28,011 nucleotides of DNA from positions 1 to 28,011 of IMG/VR virus record IMGVR_UViG_3300030202_003564; one strand, 5' to 3'. Below are positions 2,196 through 25,635 of this stretch, piece after piece. Every line of letters starts with the position of its first letter. Positions within the stretch are counted from its first letter, which is position 1. The DNA is from a virus. The notes beneath the pieces are model-generated. The model was not told the DNA's origin. It did no database searches and saw only the letters and a list, made by a program, of their open reading frames with translations. The position numbers were made by a program, and so were the translations under genes.

Positions 2196-3231
2196 CTATA
2201 AAACTATTTAATATTCGAAACTGATTATTAATCCAAAATTCTACGTTTTTAATTAAATGGCGTAACCCATCTTCTTGATAGAATTTAAGAAAAGGAACTA
2301 CATTAAGCACGGGTGGTTCTTCTTCTATTTGATCTTCTATATATTTTTTTTCTAAATTATCCATCATAGGATTATGTAAATCCATAATTTTATAATTTTT
2401 TCTTAAATTAGCTTCATCAAATACTACTCGAGAATATATAACATGCTCTTTATGTTTTTCAGCTGAAAGATTAATTATATCATCTAATGTAAGTACTCGT
2501 TCATTTAATTCTGGGAATAATTTGTGTAATTTTTTAGTACCTAAACCTTTAATTCCAGGAACCTTATCAGAAGCATCTCCCATTAAAACTTTATATAAAA
2601 TAAAATTTTCAGGTAATACTCCAAACTTTTCAACAATAGTATTTCTATTATAATAATCTTTTTCAATGGGACGATATACACAAATTTTATCACTTACTAG
2701 TTGAATAAAATCTTTATCACTTGACACAATAAATGCACGAGAGTTATCATTATTATTGGTAATAGTTTGTGCTAAATGCGCGATAATATCGTCGGCCTCT
2801 ACTTTGTCAAGCGCTATGGTTTTTACAGGGAGACACTTAAGATAATCAATTAATCTTACTATTTGATCTACTTTAGCATCATGTTCATCTCCAACATCTT
2901 CAAAAATTTCCCAATTAGTAATTCGAGAAACATGCCTACCTGATTTATATTCTGAAAGAATATTTTTACGATTCATTGAAGAATTTTCTCCATCAAAAAC
3001 TACATACATTGATGTAGGATCAATGGCATTTATTAGAGTCCCCAATGAGCGAAGAAACCCACCTAATCCACCTATATGAACTCCATGCTCATTTACTATA
3101 TTAAGCATAGCGAAATTCCTGAAAAATAGATTTAGACCGTCGATAATCAGTATTCGGTCATGTTTGGAGGATGGTGTGTCATTAACCTCATCCATATTGT
3201 TGAGGAGCTCTAATAAATTATTATCTGCCAT
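2182..3231 (-). CDS. FEN-family 5'-3' exonuclease / RNase H
   Basis: The protein belongs to the flap endonuclease/5'-3' exonuclease family, which removes RNA primers and flaps from lagging-strand fragments (T4 RNase H role). Acidic metal-binding residues are in the expected order: D31 in ILIIDGLNLFF, D80 in YVVFDGE, the E-A-D-D cluster at 145-148 (VEADDII), D172 and D174 in SSDKDF, and D219/D222 in GDASDKVPGIKGLGTKK. The last of these also marks the helix-3-turn-helix DNA-binding region. At 349 residues it is somewhat longer than T4 RNase H (about 305), mainly through a C-terminal extension after residue 270. It begins two bases after the uvsX stop and overlaps the helicase start by 14 bases, inside a replication operon. 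It could equally be called a T5-type flap exonuclease homologue. Confidence 0.9.
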   Translation of the reverse strand: MADNNLLELLNNMDEVNDTPSSKHDRILIIDGLNLFFRNFAMLNIVNEHGVHIGGLGGFLRSLGTLINAIDPTSMYVVFDGENSSMNRKNILSEYKSGRHVSRITNWEIFEDVGDEHDAKVDQIVRLIDYLKCLPVKTIALDKVEADDIIAHLAQTITNNNDNSRAFIVSSDKDFIQLVSDKICVYRPIEKDYYNRNTIVEKFGVLPENFILYKVLMGDASDKVPGIKGLGTKKLHKLFPELNERVLTLDDIINLSAEKHKEHVIYSRVVFDEANLRKNYKIMDLHNPMMDNLEKKYIEDQIEEEPPVLNVVPFLKFYQEDGLRHLIKNVEFWINNQFRILNSFIDDSK

Positions 3232-3232
3232 T

Positions 3233-4312
3233 TTATTCTGGTTCTTGTTCGTATGTTGAAGTAGCTTCTACAGAATCTTGTTCTTCGATGACTTTAAAAT
3301 CACCACCACCTAAGATTTTACTCCATTCTTTAGTATGATCGTCTTTGTATTTTTTCAGATCCTTATCAGTATCTTCAATAAAACCATGAGGTGTCATTAT
3401 AATTTTTCCTCGTGTAGTAATACCATTAATATGGTTTTTATCGATCTGAAGGTTAGTACGTTTAGCAAATTCAACCTGTTTACCATCTTTAATTGCTTTA
3501 ATTTTAGATGTTCCAGCATTAGCAATATTACCAAATGTAATTACAAATGTAGAATCAAACCACATTGCAAAACCACCTTTATTCATTAACTTGGGTTTAC
3601 CCATAGGTGATTCTGGTTTAGCTGTCCAAACTTTATTAACACATACTAAAGTATTAGTAAATTTAGAAGATTCTTTACGAGATAATGTAATTAATTGATT
3701 TACACTATTACCAAATTGAGTTGACATAGCACCGGCATTCCACTCGTTATTGTTCTTGTTAGATTTAACAGACATTTCACAAGGTACAGAACCAATTGAA
3801 TCCCAAAAGAAACATAAATCATAAGGTAGATTACCTTTCTTTTGCTCATCAAGTAAGTCAAGAATAAATCCTGCTACATCTTCAATTGTATGAATAGTTT
3901 CACGGTCAGCATAAATAAAATTACCTTCGTAATCTATTAATTCACCAGTATCTTCATCCCAAACTTCTTTTATATCAAGACCCATTTGCATGGCATGTTC
4001 CCAATTCCATTTCATCTCAGTAACAATAAACACTGGAAGTACTCCTGATTTTTGACAAGCTACTGCAGCTTCAATAAGTGCAGTAGTCTTGCCTGTATCA
4101 GAATGACCTCTAAGTAAACAAATATGACCCATTGGAAGACCAGGTACAGATGTTACTGATTGGAAGGCTGATGATAAGGGAATCCATTGTTGTTCTTTAA
4201 ACTTAATAGAACCGGTTAGTCCTTTCTTGTTTTTAAAACTCCCTAGATCAAATTTTGACTTAATCTCAGCTGATACAGCTGCGGTTAAGGATTTACTTGC
4301 TTTTCTTGCCAT
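3233..4312 (-). CDS. uvsX: RecA-like recombinase, UvsX family
   Basis: This is the T4-type strand-exchange protein. It forms filaments on single-stranded DNA and drives recombination-dependent replication together with gp32. It has 359 residues. Walker A is GHSDTGKT at residues 69-76, preceded by GLPMGHICLLR, the usual RecA-core entry. The Glu in FIVTEMKWNWEHA (about 99) is at the position of the catalytic glutamate, and LCFFWDSIGSVPCEM around 167-180 contains the Walker B aspartate (D171). The polypeptide ends with an acidic, Glu-rich tail, as is common in recombinases. It lies two bases after gp32 and two bases before RNase H, an order in keeping with T4-like replication clusters. The P-loop is a canonical GxxxxGKT. 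Confidence 0.92.
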   Translation of the reverse strand: MARKASKSLTAAVSAEIKSKFDLGSFKNKKGLTGSIKFKEQQWIPLSSAFQSVTSVPGLPMGHICLLRGHSDTGKTTALIEAAVACQKSGVLPVFIVTEMKWNWEHAMQMGLDIKEVWDEDTGELIDYEGNFIYADRETIHTIEDVAGFILDLLDEQKKGNLPYDLCFFWDSIGSVPCEMSVKSNKNNNEWNAGAMSTQFGNSVNQLITLSRKESSKFTNTLVCVNKVWTAKPESPMGKPKLMNKGGFAMWFDSTFVITFGNIANAGTSKIKAIKDGKQVEFAKRTNLQIDKNHINGITTRGKIIMTPHGFIEDTDKDLKKYKDDHTKEWSKILGGGDFKVIEEQDSVEATSTYEQEPE

Positions 4313-15384: not shown

Positions 15385-15394
15385 TATAAATATT
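15385..15394 (-). promoter_or_regulatory. Late-module motif AATATTTATA (copy 2)
   Basis: In gene orientation it reads AATATTTATACC and starts inside the stop codon of the 97-residue ORF, 15 bases before the tape measure ATG. Same 10-base core as the other copies. Confidence 0.45.
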
Positions 15395-15686
15395 ACTTCT
15401 TATTAGCCTTTTGCATTGAAGTTGGAATATTTATTTTTCCATCTTTTCCTATAATATCTGTTTTATTAGGATTAGATGTTTGCTTATTTATTATTTCAGA
15501 TTGCTTATCATAATGCTCTTTTATTTTAGCATATGTAAATTTCCTTAACCAAAGGGGCATATCATAAACTATGGGCCAAGAATAACCTCCTTGACCATAA
15601 AAACAAATTTCGTGAATTTGAGTTAAAAAACTAACTCTATATTCTTTAGCTGAAGTCGGCGTCAGGCCAAAAAAAGTTAATCCCAA
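15393..15686 (-). CDS. Second tail-chaperone ORF, overlapping and probably expressed by frameshift (gp51-like position)
   Basis: The only in-frame start near the left end of the overlap is a TTG at 15686 with no Shine-Dalgarno sequence, and the next ATG (YDMPLW, residue 43) would remove conserved-looking sequence. The frame is open upstream as far as 15728, where it begins at a stop within the gp26-like gene. The protein has a compact block YRVSFLTQIHEICFYG, then GYSWPIVYDMPLWLRKFTY, followed by a Lys/Asn-rich tail. The position, between a gp26-like gene and the tape measure and overlapping the former by 41 bases in the +1 (equally -2) frame, is that of the second half of a tail assembly chaperone made by frameshifting. 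I infer it is made mainly as an extension of the 244-residue protein (about 328 residues). Independent initiation at TTG remains possible. Confidence 0.65.
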   Translation of the reverse strand: MGLTFFGLTPTSAKEYRVSFLTQIHEICFYGQGGYSWPIVYDMPLWLRKFTYAKIKEHYDKQSEIINKQTSNPNKTDIIGKDGKINIPTSMQKANKK

Positions 15687-16380
15687 TTGGGATAGAGACT
15701 GGTGTGGTTGAAGTAGAGGGAAAAAAAGTTAAATCAACGTCGGGTTGAATTTTCTGGATAAATTCTCTAAATGCTCTGGCGTCTCTTGCCAGAAAGGCTT
15801 GGTCGACAAACTCTCGAATACTTTTGTTTTCAGGATCACCATTAATAGAAGTAACCATGTGTTTTAAACGAGTAGTTAATTCAGGAGAACTATTTCTTTT
15901 TATTTTTTTAATACCTTCTAATTCTTGATTAATTTTTATTTCGTCACCATGAGTTAATAATTTAAAGGTAATTGAATTATCAGAATTTGGCAAATCAAAC
16001 GTAAATTCATTTTGACCTTTAGTATATAAAGACTCGTCTAAAGGTTTATTTTCGATCTGAGATAGATCAATTGTTTCTTCTGTACCATTATATATAAATT
16101 TATATTCAGCTCCATACCCTAAAATACGAGATGCAATCATAATGGCATTTTTATCACCAATAACTAAATCATTATAATTGAATTTAGTTATAATTAATGA
16201 TTCTAATAATTTATCTAATACAGTTCCTTCTTTAATATAATTTTGGTTAGTAAGGATATCTTCCTCTTTAGCAGTCATATATTTGATTTCAATAGTACCA
16301 CTTGATAAAGCATGGTTTTCAGGGTAAACTAAACCTTTTGAAGGTAAGTCAATTGTTTCTGTTGGTAAGTTAAAACTCAT
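15646..16380 (-). CDS. 26: gp26-like baseplate / tail assembly chaperone protein
   Basis: The protein matches the T4 baseplate protein family that includes gp26. The N-terminus has the hallmark LPSKGLVYPENHALSSG, then IEIKYMTAKEEDILTNQNYI, a helical region with SLIITKFNYNDLVIGDKN, and the domain closes with REFVDQAFLARDARAFREFI. The C-terminus IPIGINFFWPDADFS is typical of proteins that feed baseplate or tail-tube assembly. It has 244 residues (T4 gp26 has 208). Its last 41 bases overlap a second ORF in a different frame, and a tape measure follows, the layout of a tail assembly chaperone pair. The late motif lies 35 bases before the ATG. gp26 family membership is fairly sure; chaperone function is inferred from gene order. 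Confidence 0.8.
   Translation of the reverse strand: MSFNLPTETIDLPSKGLVYPENHALSSGTIEIKYMTAKEEDILTNQNYIKEGTVLDKLLESLIITKFNYNDLVIGDKNAIMIASRILGYGAEYKFIYNGTEETIDLSQIENKPLDESLYTKGQNEFTFDLPNSDNSITFKLLTHGDEIKINQELEGIKKIKRNSSPELTTRLKHMVTSINGDPENKSIREFVDQAFLARDARAFREFIQKIQPDVDLTFFPSTSTTPVSIPIGINFFWPDADFS
15669..15732 (-). other. Candidate recoding region: paired 12-base repeats TTAACTTTTTTT
   Basis: Within the overlap of the gp26-like and 97-residue frames, TTAACTTTTTTT occurs twice in gene orientation, at 15732-15721 and 15680-15669, with 52 bases between equivalent positions. Each ends in seven T. In the gp26-like frame the first copy reads LTFF; the second reads LTFF only in the 97-residue frame. 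Moving from one copy to the other, or slipping +1/-2 on a T7 run, joins the two ORFs. A -1 slip at the first copy would instead hit a stop after 14 codons or so. Confidence 0.5.
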
Positions 16381-21750: not shown

Positions 21751-22854
21751 TTACTTATTAAATTCTTTTATTTTAGCTAAAGCTTGAGCTATTACTTGAT
21801 GCATATCATAATATACGTAAGTTGCAAGTCTCCCCCCAAAAATATAATTATTAAGACTTAAAGTTAAATTATAATACTTATTATATATTTCCATATTATC
21901 TTGATCTCTAATAGGATAATAGGGTTCATTATTCCCATTATAATCTACAGAATATTCTTTACTTATTATAGTTCCTTTTTGATTTTGAGGATCAAACCAC
22001 TTATGTTCTAAAATTCTAGTATAAGGTACTTCAGAATCTGTATAATTTATTACTGGGTTACCCTGGAAGTTGTCTTGTTTAAGATGGTCTGTTTCCCATC
22101 TAAGACTTTTATATTGTAATTTTCCAAATTTATAATTAAAAAATTTATCAATAGGTCCAGTATAAATTATTTTTGATGCTAAGGAATCATAATATTCTTT
22201 TTTATCAAAGTAATCAACATTAAGTTTAATATCAATCCCTTCTAACATTTTTTTAAATATTTGAGTATAACCTCCAATAGGCATTCCTGTATATTTATCA
22301 TTAAAATAATTACTATCCCAAGTAAATCTAACTGGTAGTCGTTTTATAATTGAAGGTGGTAAGTCTATACAAGATCTATTCCATTGCTTTTCAGTATAAC
22401 CTTTAATTAATTTTTCATAGATATCTTTCCCAACCATTGAAGTTGCTTGTTCTTCAAGATTTGTAACATTTCCTTTAAATTTTTGAGATTCAATTTTTTC
22501 TTTTGCTTGTTCAGGTTCAGTTACTCCCCACATTTGATTAAATGTCCACATATTAAAAGGAAGTGTATACATATCCCCTTTATAATTTGCAATAACATTA
22601 TGAGTATATTGTCTAAATGGAGCAAATTGATTTACATAATCCCAAAGTTTTTTATCATTAGTATGAAATATATGAGCCCCATATTTGTGAACATGAATAC
22701 CATTTATATCTTCAGTATAACAATTCCCACCAATAGTTTCTCGTTTGTCTATAACTAAACATTTTTTACCTTGTTTATTCAATTCATGGGCACATACAGA
22801 ACCAAAGGGACCAGCCCCTACTATTAAATAATCGTATTTAGGAGTAATATCCAT
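21751..22854 (-). CDS. glf: UDP-galactopyranose mutase
   Basis: This flavoenzyme converts UDP-galactopyranose to UDP-galactofuranose, the donor for Galf-containing glycans. The 367 residues are the normal length. The N-terminus is the FAD dinucleotide fold, YDYLIVGAGPFGSVCAHEL (GxGxxG) and LVIDKRETIGGNCYTED, then the family block VHKYGAHIFHTNDKKLWDYV. Later parts also match: the FNMWTFNQMWG segment, the KGYTEKQWN region, RLPVRFTWDSNYFNDKYTGMP and the C-terminal GGRLATYVYYDMHQVIAQAL. It overlaps the upstream glycosyltransferase gene by 17 bases and is followed after one base by the fused GT gene. It provides the clearest chemical clue for the module: the glycan probably contains galactofuranose, unless the enzyme only alters host sugar pools. 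Confidence 0.95.
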   Translation of the reverse strand: MDITPKYDYLIVGAGPFGSVCAHELNKQGKKCLVIDKRETIGGNCYTEDINGIHVHKYGAHIFHTNDKKLWDYVNQFAPFRQYTHNVIANYKGDMYTLPFNMWTFNQMWGVTEPEQAKEKIESQKFKGNVTNLEEQATSMVGKDIYEKLIKGYTEKQWNRSCIDLPPSIIKRLPVRFTWDSNYFNDKYTGMPIGGYTQIFKKMLEGIDIKLNVDYFDKKEYYDSLASKIIYTGPIDKFFNYKFGKLQYKSLRWETDHLKQDNFQGNPVINYTDSEVPYTRILEHKWFDPQNQKGTIISKEYSVDYNGNNEPYYPIRDQDNMEIYNKYYNLTLSLNNYIFGGRLATYVYYDMHQVIAQALAKIKEFNK

Positions 22855-23971
22855 TTTGAGAAAAAGAAGTTGCTATGTTGTGTAATTCTTGACAAAAGGT
22901 TCCAGTATTATAATATGCACTATTTTCAATTAAAAAAGAAGATTCTGGGAATGGATTAGGTCTATTAACGTCTACTAATTTAGTTGTAATTGACATCATA
23001 TTGTTATATTGTTCTTTAGATTGATAATGTAAAGCTAATTTAACATAATGTTCATTTCTACTAGGATTAAATAAAGTTGCTTTTTCTAAAAAGTAAACAT
23101 GTTTTTCATGGTCTCCAATCCAACTATAAGCATCTGCTATTAATATACAAGCATAATAACCCATATCATCTAATCGATTTGGATGTTGGGTTTGTTCAAA
23201 ATTATGTAATTTATTTAAATATTGGGTATAATAGAAAATTACTCTGCGAGCATATTCTTCTGAGTGAGCTTGTCCAAAGGGTAAATTATCAGGATCTCTA
23301 TAGGCATCATTATATGACTTAGCTATATACCATAAATGATAATCATCTTCTAGTACTTTATTTGATGGTATTTTATCTAATTCAAGTTCTAAAGCATCAG
23401 TTAAAAATTTCATAGGAGCAAACCAAGTTTCTCCATCATTAGTAATTATTTGTTTAAAACTAGAAGGTAAACTTACTCGTTGAAAATTTTCCCCTACATC
23501 TGGTAAGTGAATGGTTTCATGTCTTTTATCTTTTTGGAAAAACCATGGAAGTTTAGCATTCCATAACCAAGTACGAAAATATAATGAATTTCCAGGATCT
23601 GCTGTGATATTAAAACTATTAATTGATGTATCAGTAAAAATTTCCCAATCAAAAGTTTCATCAACAGATAATTGCTCATCAGCATCCATACGTAAAATCC
23701 AATCACAACCATGGTTTGATTTTAAGCATGTTTGTAATGTATGGTCTCTATTAAATCCTGGATATTCCCATTTAGTTTCATAAGTAAATCCTGGGATGTT
23801 TCTTTCGTTGAAGAAATTATCAATTATATTTCGAGTATTATCTGAACCATTACATTGGACAACATAATAATCAATATAATCTACAACAGATGTTAACATT
23901 CTAGTAATAGTAGCTTCTTCACTACCAACCATAGCGTTCATTACGATTTTAATATGGGGTGGTTTTTTCAT
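22838..23971 (-). CDS. Glycosyltransferase family 2-like protein with C-terminal helical repeats
   Basis: The first 210 residues resemble a GT2 (GT-A) transferase: HIKIVMNAMVGSEEATITRM opens the fold and WILRMDADEQL (91-101) carries the DxD metal/nucleotide-sugar site at D96 and D98. The HxxxHL-like DKRHETIHLPD follows. The C-terminal half (about 240-350) is helical, with pairs such as ACILIADAYSWIGDHEKHVY and HYVKLALHYQSKEQYNNM, typical of TPR repeats that hold acceptors or partners. It has 377 residues and no membrane segment. It overlaps the carbamoyltransferase stop by 4 bases and the mutase start by 17, so it is co-translated with them. The sugar and acceptor cannot be read from sequence. 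A related organisation, GT2 plus TPR, occurs in peptide and protein glycosyltransferases. Confidence 0.8.
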   Translation of the reverse strand: MKKPPHIKIVMNAMVGSEEATITRMLTSVVDYIDYYVVQCNGSDNTRNIIDNFFNERNIPGFTYETKWEYPGFNRDHTLQTCLKSNHGCDWILRMDADEQLSVDETFDWEIFTDTSINSFNITADPGNSLYFRTWLWNAKLPWFFQKDKRHETIHLPDVGENFQRVSLPSSFKQIITNDGETWFAPMKFLTDALELELDKIPSNKVLEDDYHLWYIAKSYNDAYRDPDNLPFGQAHSEEYARRVIFYYTQYLNKLHNFEQTQHPNRLDDMGYYACILIADAYSWIGDHEKHVYFLEKATLFNPSRNEHYVKLALHYQSKEQYNNMMSITTKLVDVNRPNPFPESSFLIENSAYYNTGTFCQELHNIATSFSQNGYYS

Positions 23972-25635
23972 TTTTTAGTAATTATATAATTATCAATAAA
24001 TACAGCATAAAGACCATGGGTTAACATAGTTTTTATAGCATCATAAGGGGTTTCTACAATGGGTTCTTCGGGCCCATTAAATGAAGTATTTAAAATTACA
24101 GGAAGACCTGTTAAATTATTAAATTCAGATATTAATTTATAATATTTAAAATTAGATTCTTTTGTAACTGATTGATACCGAGAAGTATAATCAAAATGAG
24201 TAACTCCCGGGATTTTATCTTTCCATTCAGGTTTAACATTAGTTGTTACTAACATATATGGTGAATAGACATCTAATTCAAATATTTTACTTTGTTCTTC
24301 AAATAATACTGAAGGAGCAAATGGACGATACCATTCTCGTTTTTTAATTTCACTGTTAATATATTCAACCATCCATTTAGAACTTGGATTAGCAAGAATA
24401 GAACGATTACCTAAAGCTCTAGGTCCACTTTCAGAACCTTTATTAAACCAACCAATGACTTTATTTTCTGAAAGATATTGGGCTGCTAATTGGATTGTTT
24501 TTTCTTCAGTAAATCTAGAAACTTTAATATTATCAAATTTAGTTATATCTAAATTTATTTCTGCATCTGAATATGTTTTACCTAAATAAGGAGTCATCCA
24601 CTTAGTATTTTGATGAGTTCTTCCTGTAAGTAAAGTGCTTCCATAAAAAGCACACCCTAAAGAAATTCCACTATCATCTGACGGGGGTAAAAAATAATTA
24701 TTTTTAAATAATTTTGATTGTAAGATTAGTTCATTTGTATTACAATTTAAAAATGAACCTCCAACAACACAAAGATTATCCATATTTGTTAAGTTTTTAG
24801 CTATTTTAACTAAATGTAATGAGTTTAATTCTTGTTCCCTTTGATATAGACCTGCAACATTAGCTTTTGATTGAAAATCTGAATTATAATTTACTGTGTC
24901 CTCCATAATGGGAAATGTGGATACTTGTAAATCGGTTTCAGTTCTAATAGAGTATTCAGATTGTTGAGATACCCAATCTTTATTAGCATAAGAAGCTAAA
25001 CCCATTAATTTACCAGAAGACCATGTATTATGCTTTTCATTATAAACTAACTGAAGTGCCCCCATACCATAAAGATAACCAATTGAACCTTCATCATGTA
25101 TTGAGAATGGGAATTTAACCCATTTTTTGAAAATTGGTTCAGGTAATAATTTATTTTTAGTAAATTTATAAATTGAAAAACCTTCGCTCCATTGTTGACC
25201 TTTATTTAAATCAGATTCATCTAATTGATACCAATCTTTTATAGGAGTATCATCATTATATAATGAACCCATAGCATCAGCTACAACTACTACAGCTTCT
25301 TCAAAATTTGAAGCATAAAAAGTAGAATAGGCATGAGCCATATGGTGAGGAATAAACTTTAATTTATCTAAGGATTGTCCTGTAAGTTCTTGAAATTGAG
25401 TAGGGATATTAGAATTTTCTTGTGTAGTATTATATACATACAGATCAATATCATTATAAGTAAATCCTAAAGCATTTAAACAATAATCAATAGATTCTAT
25501 TGGGATTATTTTTGATTCATCTGTTTTAATACGGCTAATTCTTTCATTAGCAATAGAAATTTTAACTTCACCATCTACTGTAATGGTAGCTCCTCTTGAA
25601 TGACCTGTTAAAAAACCTAAACATATGTTTTTCAT
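23968..25635 (-). CDS. O-carbamoyltransferase, NodU/TobZ family
   Basis: Members of this family transfer carbamoyl from carbamoyl phosphate, through a carbamoyl-adenylate, to a hydroxyl of a sugar or other acceptor. The 555 residues match the usual two-domain length. N-terminal Kae1-like domain: LTGHSRGATITVDG with H12, NERISRIK, the metal site HHMAHAYSTF (97-106) and VVADAMGS with D120. C-terminal YrdC-like part: FLPPSDDSGISLGCAFYG, GSESGPRALGNRSILANP (400-417), REWYRPFAPSVLFEE and VILNTSFNGPEEPIVETP. All signature blocks are intact, so it should be active. Overlaps of one base with the upstream GT2 and four with the downstream gene tie it to the glycan operon. The acceptor may be a sugar on a virion or host glycan; phage homologues acting on hydroxymethylcytosine are also known. 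Confidence 0.93.
   Translation of the reverse strand: MKNICLGFLTGHSRGATITVDGEVKISIANERISRIKTDESKIIPIESIDYCLNALGFTYNDIDLYVYNTTQENSNIPTQFQELTGQSLDKLKFIPHHMAHAYSTFYASNFEEAVVVVADAMGSLYNDDTPIKDWYQLDESDLNKGQQWSEGFSIYKFTKNKLLPEPIFKKWVKFPFSIHDEGSIGYLYGMGALQLVYNEKHNTWSSGKLMGLASYANKDWVSQQSEYSIRTETDLQVSTFPIMEDTVNYNSDFQSKANVAGLYQREQELNSLHLVKIAKNLTNMDNLCVVGGSFLNCNTNELILQSKLFKNNYFLPPSDDSGISLGCAFYGSTLLTGRTHQNTKWMTPYLGKTYSDAEINLDITKFDNIKVSRFTEEKTIQLAAQYLSENKVIGWFNKGSESGPRALGNRSILANPSSKWMVEYINSEIKKREWYRPFAPSVLFEEQSKIFELDVYSPYMLVTTNVKPEWKDKIPGVTHFDYTSRYQSVTKESNFKYYKLISEFNNLTGLPVILNTSFNGPEEPIVETPYDAIKTMLTHGLYAVFIDNYIITKK

Follow-up and report, generated by a model that had tools for sequence, protein, structure and literature searches.

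A probable +1 ribosomal frameshift site between overlapping tail-chaperone reading frames of the T4 gp26/gp51 type

Two open reading frames, ORF1 and ORF2, overlap in different frames immediately 5′ of a tape-measure-like gene in a 28-kb virus record, which raises the question of whether the second frame is translated as an extension of the first and by which mechanism the two would be joined. The window, as the term is used here, is the whole stretch of DNA that was analyzed (28,011 nt), and all of the features described below are located on its minus strand. We consider the junction to be most probably a site of programmed +1 ribosomal frameshifting comparable to that of lambda G/GT, situated in a T4-type chaperone family, with a probability of about 0.92. 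This reading is based on the frame relation, the conserved element at the junction, the loss of synonymous freedom within it and the part of the family in which ORF2 has no start codon, all of which are evident from the sequences, and further on the homology to relatives shifted by −1 and to T4 gp26/gp51.

Organization of the overlapping reading frames

The arrangement of two overlapping ORFs in different frames directly upstream of a tape-measure gene is that of G/GT-type loci. The 683-aa protein encoded directly 3′ of ORF2 showed only a weak match to TMP_3 (E 0.002, under the Pfam cut-off), and an annotated tape measure is located at the equivalent position in immuto, LIS04 and SP-15; tail tube (gp19-like) and sheath genes are present 5′ of ORF1. 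The preliminary description had noted tail-chaperone ORFs that overlap in front of a tape measure and considered their +1 relation unusual, and we agree on both points. The ORF ends and the frame of ORF2 relative to ORF1 (+1, equivalent to −2) that it gave were reproduced (Table 1). Its two identical T7-containing repeats were also recovered: TTAACTTTTTTT occurs twice in the window, 52 bases apart, and none of 100 shuffled windows contained two copies. As described, LTFF is read from the first copy in the ORF1 frame and from the second in the ORF2 frame. In the ORF1 frame, the second copy reads I-N-F-F-W-P, which is the true conserved end of the ORF1 protein. By eye, a UDP-galactopyranose-mutase-like gene (21751-22854, minus strand) and a carbamoyltransferase-like gene (23968-25635, minus strand) were also seen in the window; both genes adjoin glycosyltransferase-like ORFs and would form a sugar-modification block (21751-25635, minus strand) beside the tail genes.

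Table 1. Positions of the features at the ORF1-ORF2 junction, in window coordinates
Feature	Position	Strand	Description
ORF1	15646-16380	−	gp26/gp51-type (PF12322 / phrog_150) tail or hub assembly chaperone, short form, 244 aa
ORF2	15393-15668	−	+1-frame C-terminal extension, 91 codons and stop
Frameshift element C UUU UUU UGG CCU GAC	15661-15676	−	proposed +1 slip site; conserved, no synonymous variation at F, F and P
Predicted long form, 328 aa	15396-16380	−	inferred; 16380-15670 joined to 15668-15396, base 15669 skipped
First copy of TTAACTTTTTTT	15721-15732	−	LTFF in ORF1 frame; outside the conserved mechanism
Second copy of TTAACTTTTTTT	15669-15680	−	LTFF in ORF2 frame; conserved element among relatives
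TTG	15684-15686	−	sole conventional ORF2 start codon; probably unused
Tape-measure-like protein, 683 aa	13318-15369	−	directly 3′ of ORF2; weak TMP_3 match

In profile searches, ORF1 matched phrog_150, annotated as "baseplate hub", with an E value of 1.4e-8. PF12322 (T4_baseplate), of which T4 gp26 and gp51 are both members, was not matched by the window ORF1 alone, was matched by 10 of the 15 aligned long forms (best E value, 1.6e-5) and was matched by distant family members with E values of 2e-9 to 4e-25. ORF1 and ORF2 were folded separately for structure models. The AlphaFold (AF2) model of ORF1, with a pLDDT of 90, matched T4-like "baseplate hub assembly" proteins in BFVD, and the model of ORF2 alone gave no fold match. 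The natural end of ORF1 is IPIG-x-N-F-F-W-P-D, and ORF2, which is conserved in all relatives, carries the motif FxGxGGYxWxxVYxMPxWLRxF.

Conservation of the junction among relatives

Relatives were collected in two scans. The first fetched 80 viral-contig relatives with ORF1, and one of its six search patterns (GINFFWPD) covered the motif; the second used L107 as the query with search patterns that did not touch the motif and yielded 80 more loci. ORF2 was in the +1 frame in 79 of the 79 first-scan loci with a readable ORF2, with overlaps of 26 to 104 nt, and TTT YTT T(GG/AC) C CCT GA was invariant in the 80 tabulated loci, the window included. In the second scan, 76 of 80 loci were +1 and carried this element or a closely similar form of it; the remaining loci were L107, in which ORF2 starts with an ATG of its own, L141, in which ORF1 contains a stop, and L154 and L155, in which an insert separates the two ORFs. 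Both scans together gave 145 distinct +1 loci, which are related sequences and not independent events, and their junctions conform to TTT YTT T(GG/AC) C CCT GA with few variants. Cultured phages with the +1 arrangement are immuto, Mel-JY01, SP-15, LIS04, GXN1, BRock, LuckySocke and RM378. The preliminary description had named loss of the T runs, or an ATG belonging to ORF2, in relatives as grounds against its reading; the outcome was in its favour, with the second run and the frame relation kept in nearly all of them. Near position 2565 of L141, we observed an in-frame stop (AAT TAA) in ORF1 that is absent from its near relative L140 and that is probably a sequencing error or a sign of a broken copy.

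As in G/GT-type systems, a slippery sequence is conserved within the overlap and synonymous change in it is suppressed. Among 73 non-redundant loci, the ratio of observed to expected synonymous differences in frame 0 was 0.8-1.3 up to codon −3, dropped over the next two codons, which precede the FF pair (0.43 and then 0.08), was 0.00 at F, F and P, and rose to 0.18 at D and 0.67 one codon further on. In the same loci, the third positions of the +1 frame were frozen across GGC CUG and free from the following codon onwards. Because frame-0 synonymous freedom stops and the +1-frame third positions then become free, the change of frame is placed within this block; the position of the 0-frame stop drifts 1-5 codons 3′ of it. 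The proline at the junction is encoded by CCT in 80 of 80 loci, compared with 33% of the proline codons in these genes, and the aspartate by GAC in 76 of 80, compared with a codon usage of 21%. Dual coding (WPD in frame 0 and GLT in +1) could explain part or much of the conservation of CCTGA.

We found that ORF2 has become detached in two lineages. In L102 and L107, which are sisters nested in the +1 clade of the tree, ORF2 starts with a separate ATG, and the junctions are TTC TTG TAT CCT GAC and TTC CTT TGG CCA GAT, respectively. We also noticed an additional N-terminal stretch (MNIDRFLQELQESPEGRQFL...) on ORF2 in this lineage of two separated proteins. In L154 and L155, the upstream junction reads TTC TTC TGG CCT GAT, and ORF2 again has its own ATG. 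A 227-aa ORF starting with MVGIYKIISPSNKIYIGQ lies exactly between ORF1 and ORF2 there (2703-3386), and by eye its start resembles a GIY-YIG homing endonuclease. In both losses the element has decayed, and F-[FL]-[WY]-P-D is retained as protein, a coincidence that counts in favour of the frameshift reading. Judging from the detached ORF2 of L102, L107 and L154, fusion of ORF1 and ORF2 is not universally required.

Slip codon, mechanism and alternative explanations

The bases flanking the run point to the direction of the shift. The base before TTT YTT T was T in 1 of 80 loci, compared with approximately 40 expected from codon usage, and the asparagine codon before the run was AAC rather than AAT in 34:0 cases, although AAT makes up 73% of asparagine codons. 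T preceded an uninterrupted T7 only twice among the 145 loci, but it preceded the run in 7 of the 23 loci with a C-interrupted run, where the C blocks a −1 slip. With a T at this position, the sequence would become the canonical −1 heptamer U UUU UUN. TTTCTTT was found in 13 distinct loci, including immuto and L016, and TTCTTTT in 10; good +1 re-pairing (CUU or UUU to UUU) is kept in these loci, whereas −2 re-pairing is poor. For the clade of the window, the slip is therefore more likely to take place on the second Phe codon of the FF pair. LR756508 has CUA in place of YUU, and therefore its slip codon would differ. In immuto, a +1 slip at CUU predicts the junction sequence ...GVSFLGLTPEYR. 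A slip at CCU was also considered and is less likely; CCA replaces CCT in L157, RM378 and SP-15 have no proline at the junction, and the frame is still +1 in all three.

That the shift occurs, at which codon and how efficiently, and that its products act as chaperones, we infer from these comparisons of sequence; the mechanism would be as follows. The majority of ribosomes would end at the ORF1 stop and release the short form (...IPIGINFFWPDADFS). A fraction would stall when UUU occupies the P site and UGG the A site, and the P-site tRNA-Phe would move one base forward, from UUU (15672-15670) to UUU (15671-15669). Reading would then resume at GGC CUG ACG and give a long form of 237 + 91 = 328 residues with a helical C-terminal extension. 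During tail assembly, the short and long forms would work on the tape-measure protein in a balanced stoichiometry. RNAalifold predicted zero pairs downstream of the junction in 20 loci; therefore, the only stimulator known is the element itself. Searches for Rfam families and tRNAs in the window returned none. GGAGG-like stretches are present 5′ of the junction in some loci and absent from the clade of the window, and a Shine-Dalgarno stimulator was thus rejected as a candidate.

The preliminary description had left open whether the slip on the second T run, giving a protein of about 328 residues, was +1 or −2. The second run, the +1 direction and the length are retained here. A −2 slip, as in phage Mu, would lead to the identical frame, and the U7 of the window permits perfect −2 re-pairing; nevertheless, in the TTTCTTT, TTCTTTT and CTGTTTC variants only +1 gives good re-pairing, and we regard −2 as unlikely. 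The same interrupted runs, together with the BRock run (CTGTTTCGC), argue against transcriptional slippage, in which the RNA would lose one U or gain two on the T7 run. T7 is indeed present in most loci, as this explanation would have it, but a conserved uninterrupted homopolymer was not found, the frame relation is independent of run length and T8 is avoided, which makes polymerase slippage very unlikely. An assembly or sequencing indel, or a pseudogene, might be suspected at a homopolymer lying at the joint of a metagenomic contig; its probability is virtually negligible, as the same frame relation was seen in approximately 150 further contigs and in the genomes of cultured phages, and some of these loci have no long homopolymer.

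The 52-base hop that the preliminary description had also offered, as a translational bypass similar to that of T4 gene 60 or a polymerase jump between the 12-base repeats, did not hold up and is highly improbable. The likeness to gene 60, with its duplicated sites approximately 50 nt apart, is superficial. The window does have identical 12-base sites at the required spacing, and T7 is also found 52 nt 5′ in 43 of 97 relatives, always at that distance; however, the upstream T7 is missing in the other 54, which retain the +1 relation. Conserved take-off and landing sites, as expected for a bypass of the gene 60 type, were therefore not found: codon conservation is seen at the second site, and the stretch that would be skipped encodes the conserved IPIG-x-N end of ORF1. 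The cleanness of the fit is uninformative, since any jump between repeats in different frames looks clean, and a long form containing STSTTPVSIPIGIN would be incompatible with a jump. As a separate observation, Thr-Phe-Phe 52 nt 5′ of the slip site is encoded by ACT TTT TTT in 37 of the 42 non-redundant loci in which ORF1 has these residues, with approximately 31% expected from codon usage. This is an in-phase −1 heptamer, no conserved downstream frame was seen, and the excess may reflect shared ancestry.

Independent initiation of ORF2, either at the TTG or at the near-invariant CUG in GGC CUG AC, would likewise supply the second protein. ORF2 has an ATG in L102, L107 and L154, the CUG is present in nearly all loci, and flavobacterial hosts do not require a Shine-Dalgarno sequence. 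In the window, as had been reported, the TTG at 15686 is the only conventional start and has no Shine-Dalgarno sequence. This TTG exists because the Ile-Gly codons ATT GGN of ORF1 create it, and it is not conserved among relatives. When the +1 frame was read from the preceding stop to the conserved domain of ORF2, no ATG, GTG or TTG was encountered in 15 of 97 loci, and most members of the L092 clade have a +1 frame that becomes open only 20 nt before the ORF1 stop. Initiation at CUG would leave the conservation of UUU YUU U, the avoidance of T and the −1 heptamers of relatives unexplained, and the CUG is lost in L157 (CCA GAC), where the frame is kept. A conserved start codon was thus not found, and separate initiation is quite unlikely for the frameshifting clade.

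Relatives with a −1 shift, T4 gp26/gp51 and other known systems

In RAS14, XacN1, Atu_ph07, Vibrio 2.275.O, Munch, GAP32, LR756511 and contig L091, the extension is in the −1 frame, and in all eight the corresponding FF codons lie within U UUU UUY in phase, with T before FF. The +1-frame ORF2 and the −1-frame extensions are homologous (hhalign probability 92, E 5e-7, with 0.26 for the reversed control). The −1 phages fall into more than one group of the tree, in which some deep branches are long and uncertain, and therefore the shift has probably switched direction on more than one occasion. Scanning viral sequences with RAS14 as the query yielded nothing.

We compared the two forms with T4 gp26 and gp51. 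The phrog_150 profile has 282 positions; T4 gp26, like the short forms, stops at approximately 233-244, and gp51 reaches 280. When ORF2 was added to the short form of LR756508, the match extended to 273 with a small gain in score, from 65.8 to 68.6 bits. Deeper alignments were needed for the comparison with gp51, as direct comparison of few sequences was uninformative. Long forms matched the gp51 family through the C-terminal region (probability 95-97, E 6e-8 to 6e-11, with 0.31 for the reversed control). The match of ORF2 by itself to the last 30-70 residues of gp51 was moderate (probability 22-52, E about 1e-4; against the gp51 C-terminus, 52 and 1.4e-4, with 0.65 for the reversed control). 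T4 gp26 thus shares its end point with the short form, and gp51 has an ORF2-like C-terminal extension, but the two are separate genes on opposite strands without a frameshift. The T4 proteins are hub assembly chaperones, and gp51 is essential, of unknown function and missing from the final particle (2010 review, PMC3004832); G-T frameshifting is described as widely conserved in long-tailed phages except T4 (2016 review, PMC5009743). The comparison suggests that in T4 the short and long forms have been split between genes 26 and 51, which offers a testable role for each protein, gp26 as the short form and gp51 as the long form. More broadly, we lean towards the view that PF12322 myoviruses as a whole make short/long pairs by frameshifting at one Phe-Phe pair, with the direction set by the flanking bases (U before for −1; non-U before and a re-pairable base after for +1) and T4 26/51 as the split, duplicated equivalents. 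If true, this would explain both the apparent exception of T4 and the identity of gp51.

In lambda G/GT, two overlapping ORFs likewise lie 5′ of the tape measure, and a low-probability shift adds a second chaperone domain. That shift is −1 on its own slippery site and in gpG, whereas here it would be +1 on UUU YUU U in the T4-type family PF12322. The site would share with prfB (RF2; CUU UGA C) a +1 slip of a P-site YUU onto UUU in front of a slow A-site codon, but prfB has a stop in the A site and the present family has UGG or UAC, without a consistent Shine-Dalgarno stimulator. Structural or tail genes also reach the +1 frame in Listeria phage PSA and SPP1 (+1), probably in the haloarchaeal HSTV-2 tail chaperone (+1) and in phage Mu (−2); these are likened by description and not by sequence, and the genes, hosts and shift sites (e.g., CCC UGA) differ. 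We found no description of a frameshift in this PF12322 family in the open-access literature. Tail-chaperone frameshifting would extend to the family homologous to T4 gp26/gp51, in which a single site would serve both directions and some lineages have lost the shift. The family would also supply a large natural data set, of a kind that is rare, on a +1 shift site that contains no stop codon. The reading would also correct many phage genomes that annotate ORF2 as a small truncated gene. We observed that ORF2 is a truncated small gene or unannotated in NC_055915, SP-15, LIS04 and LR756508, because the frameshift was not recognized.
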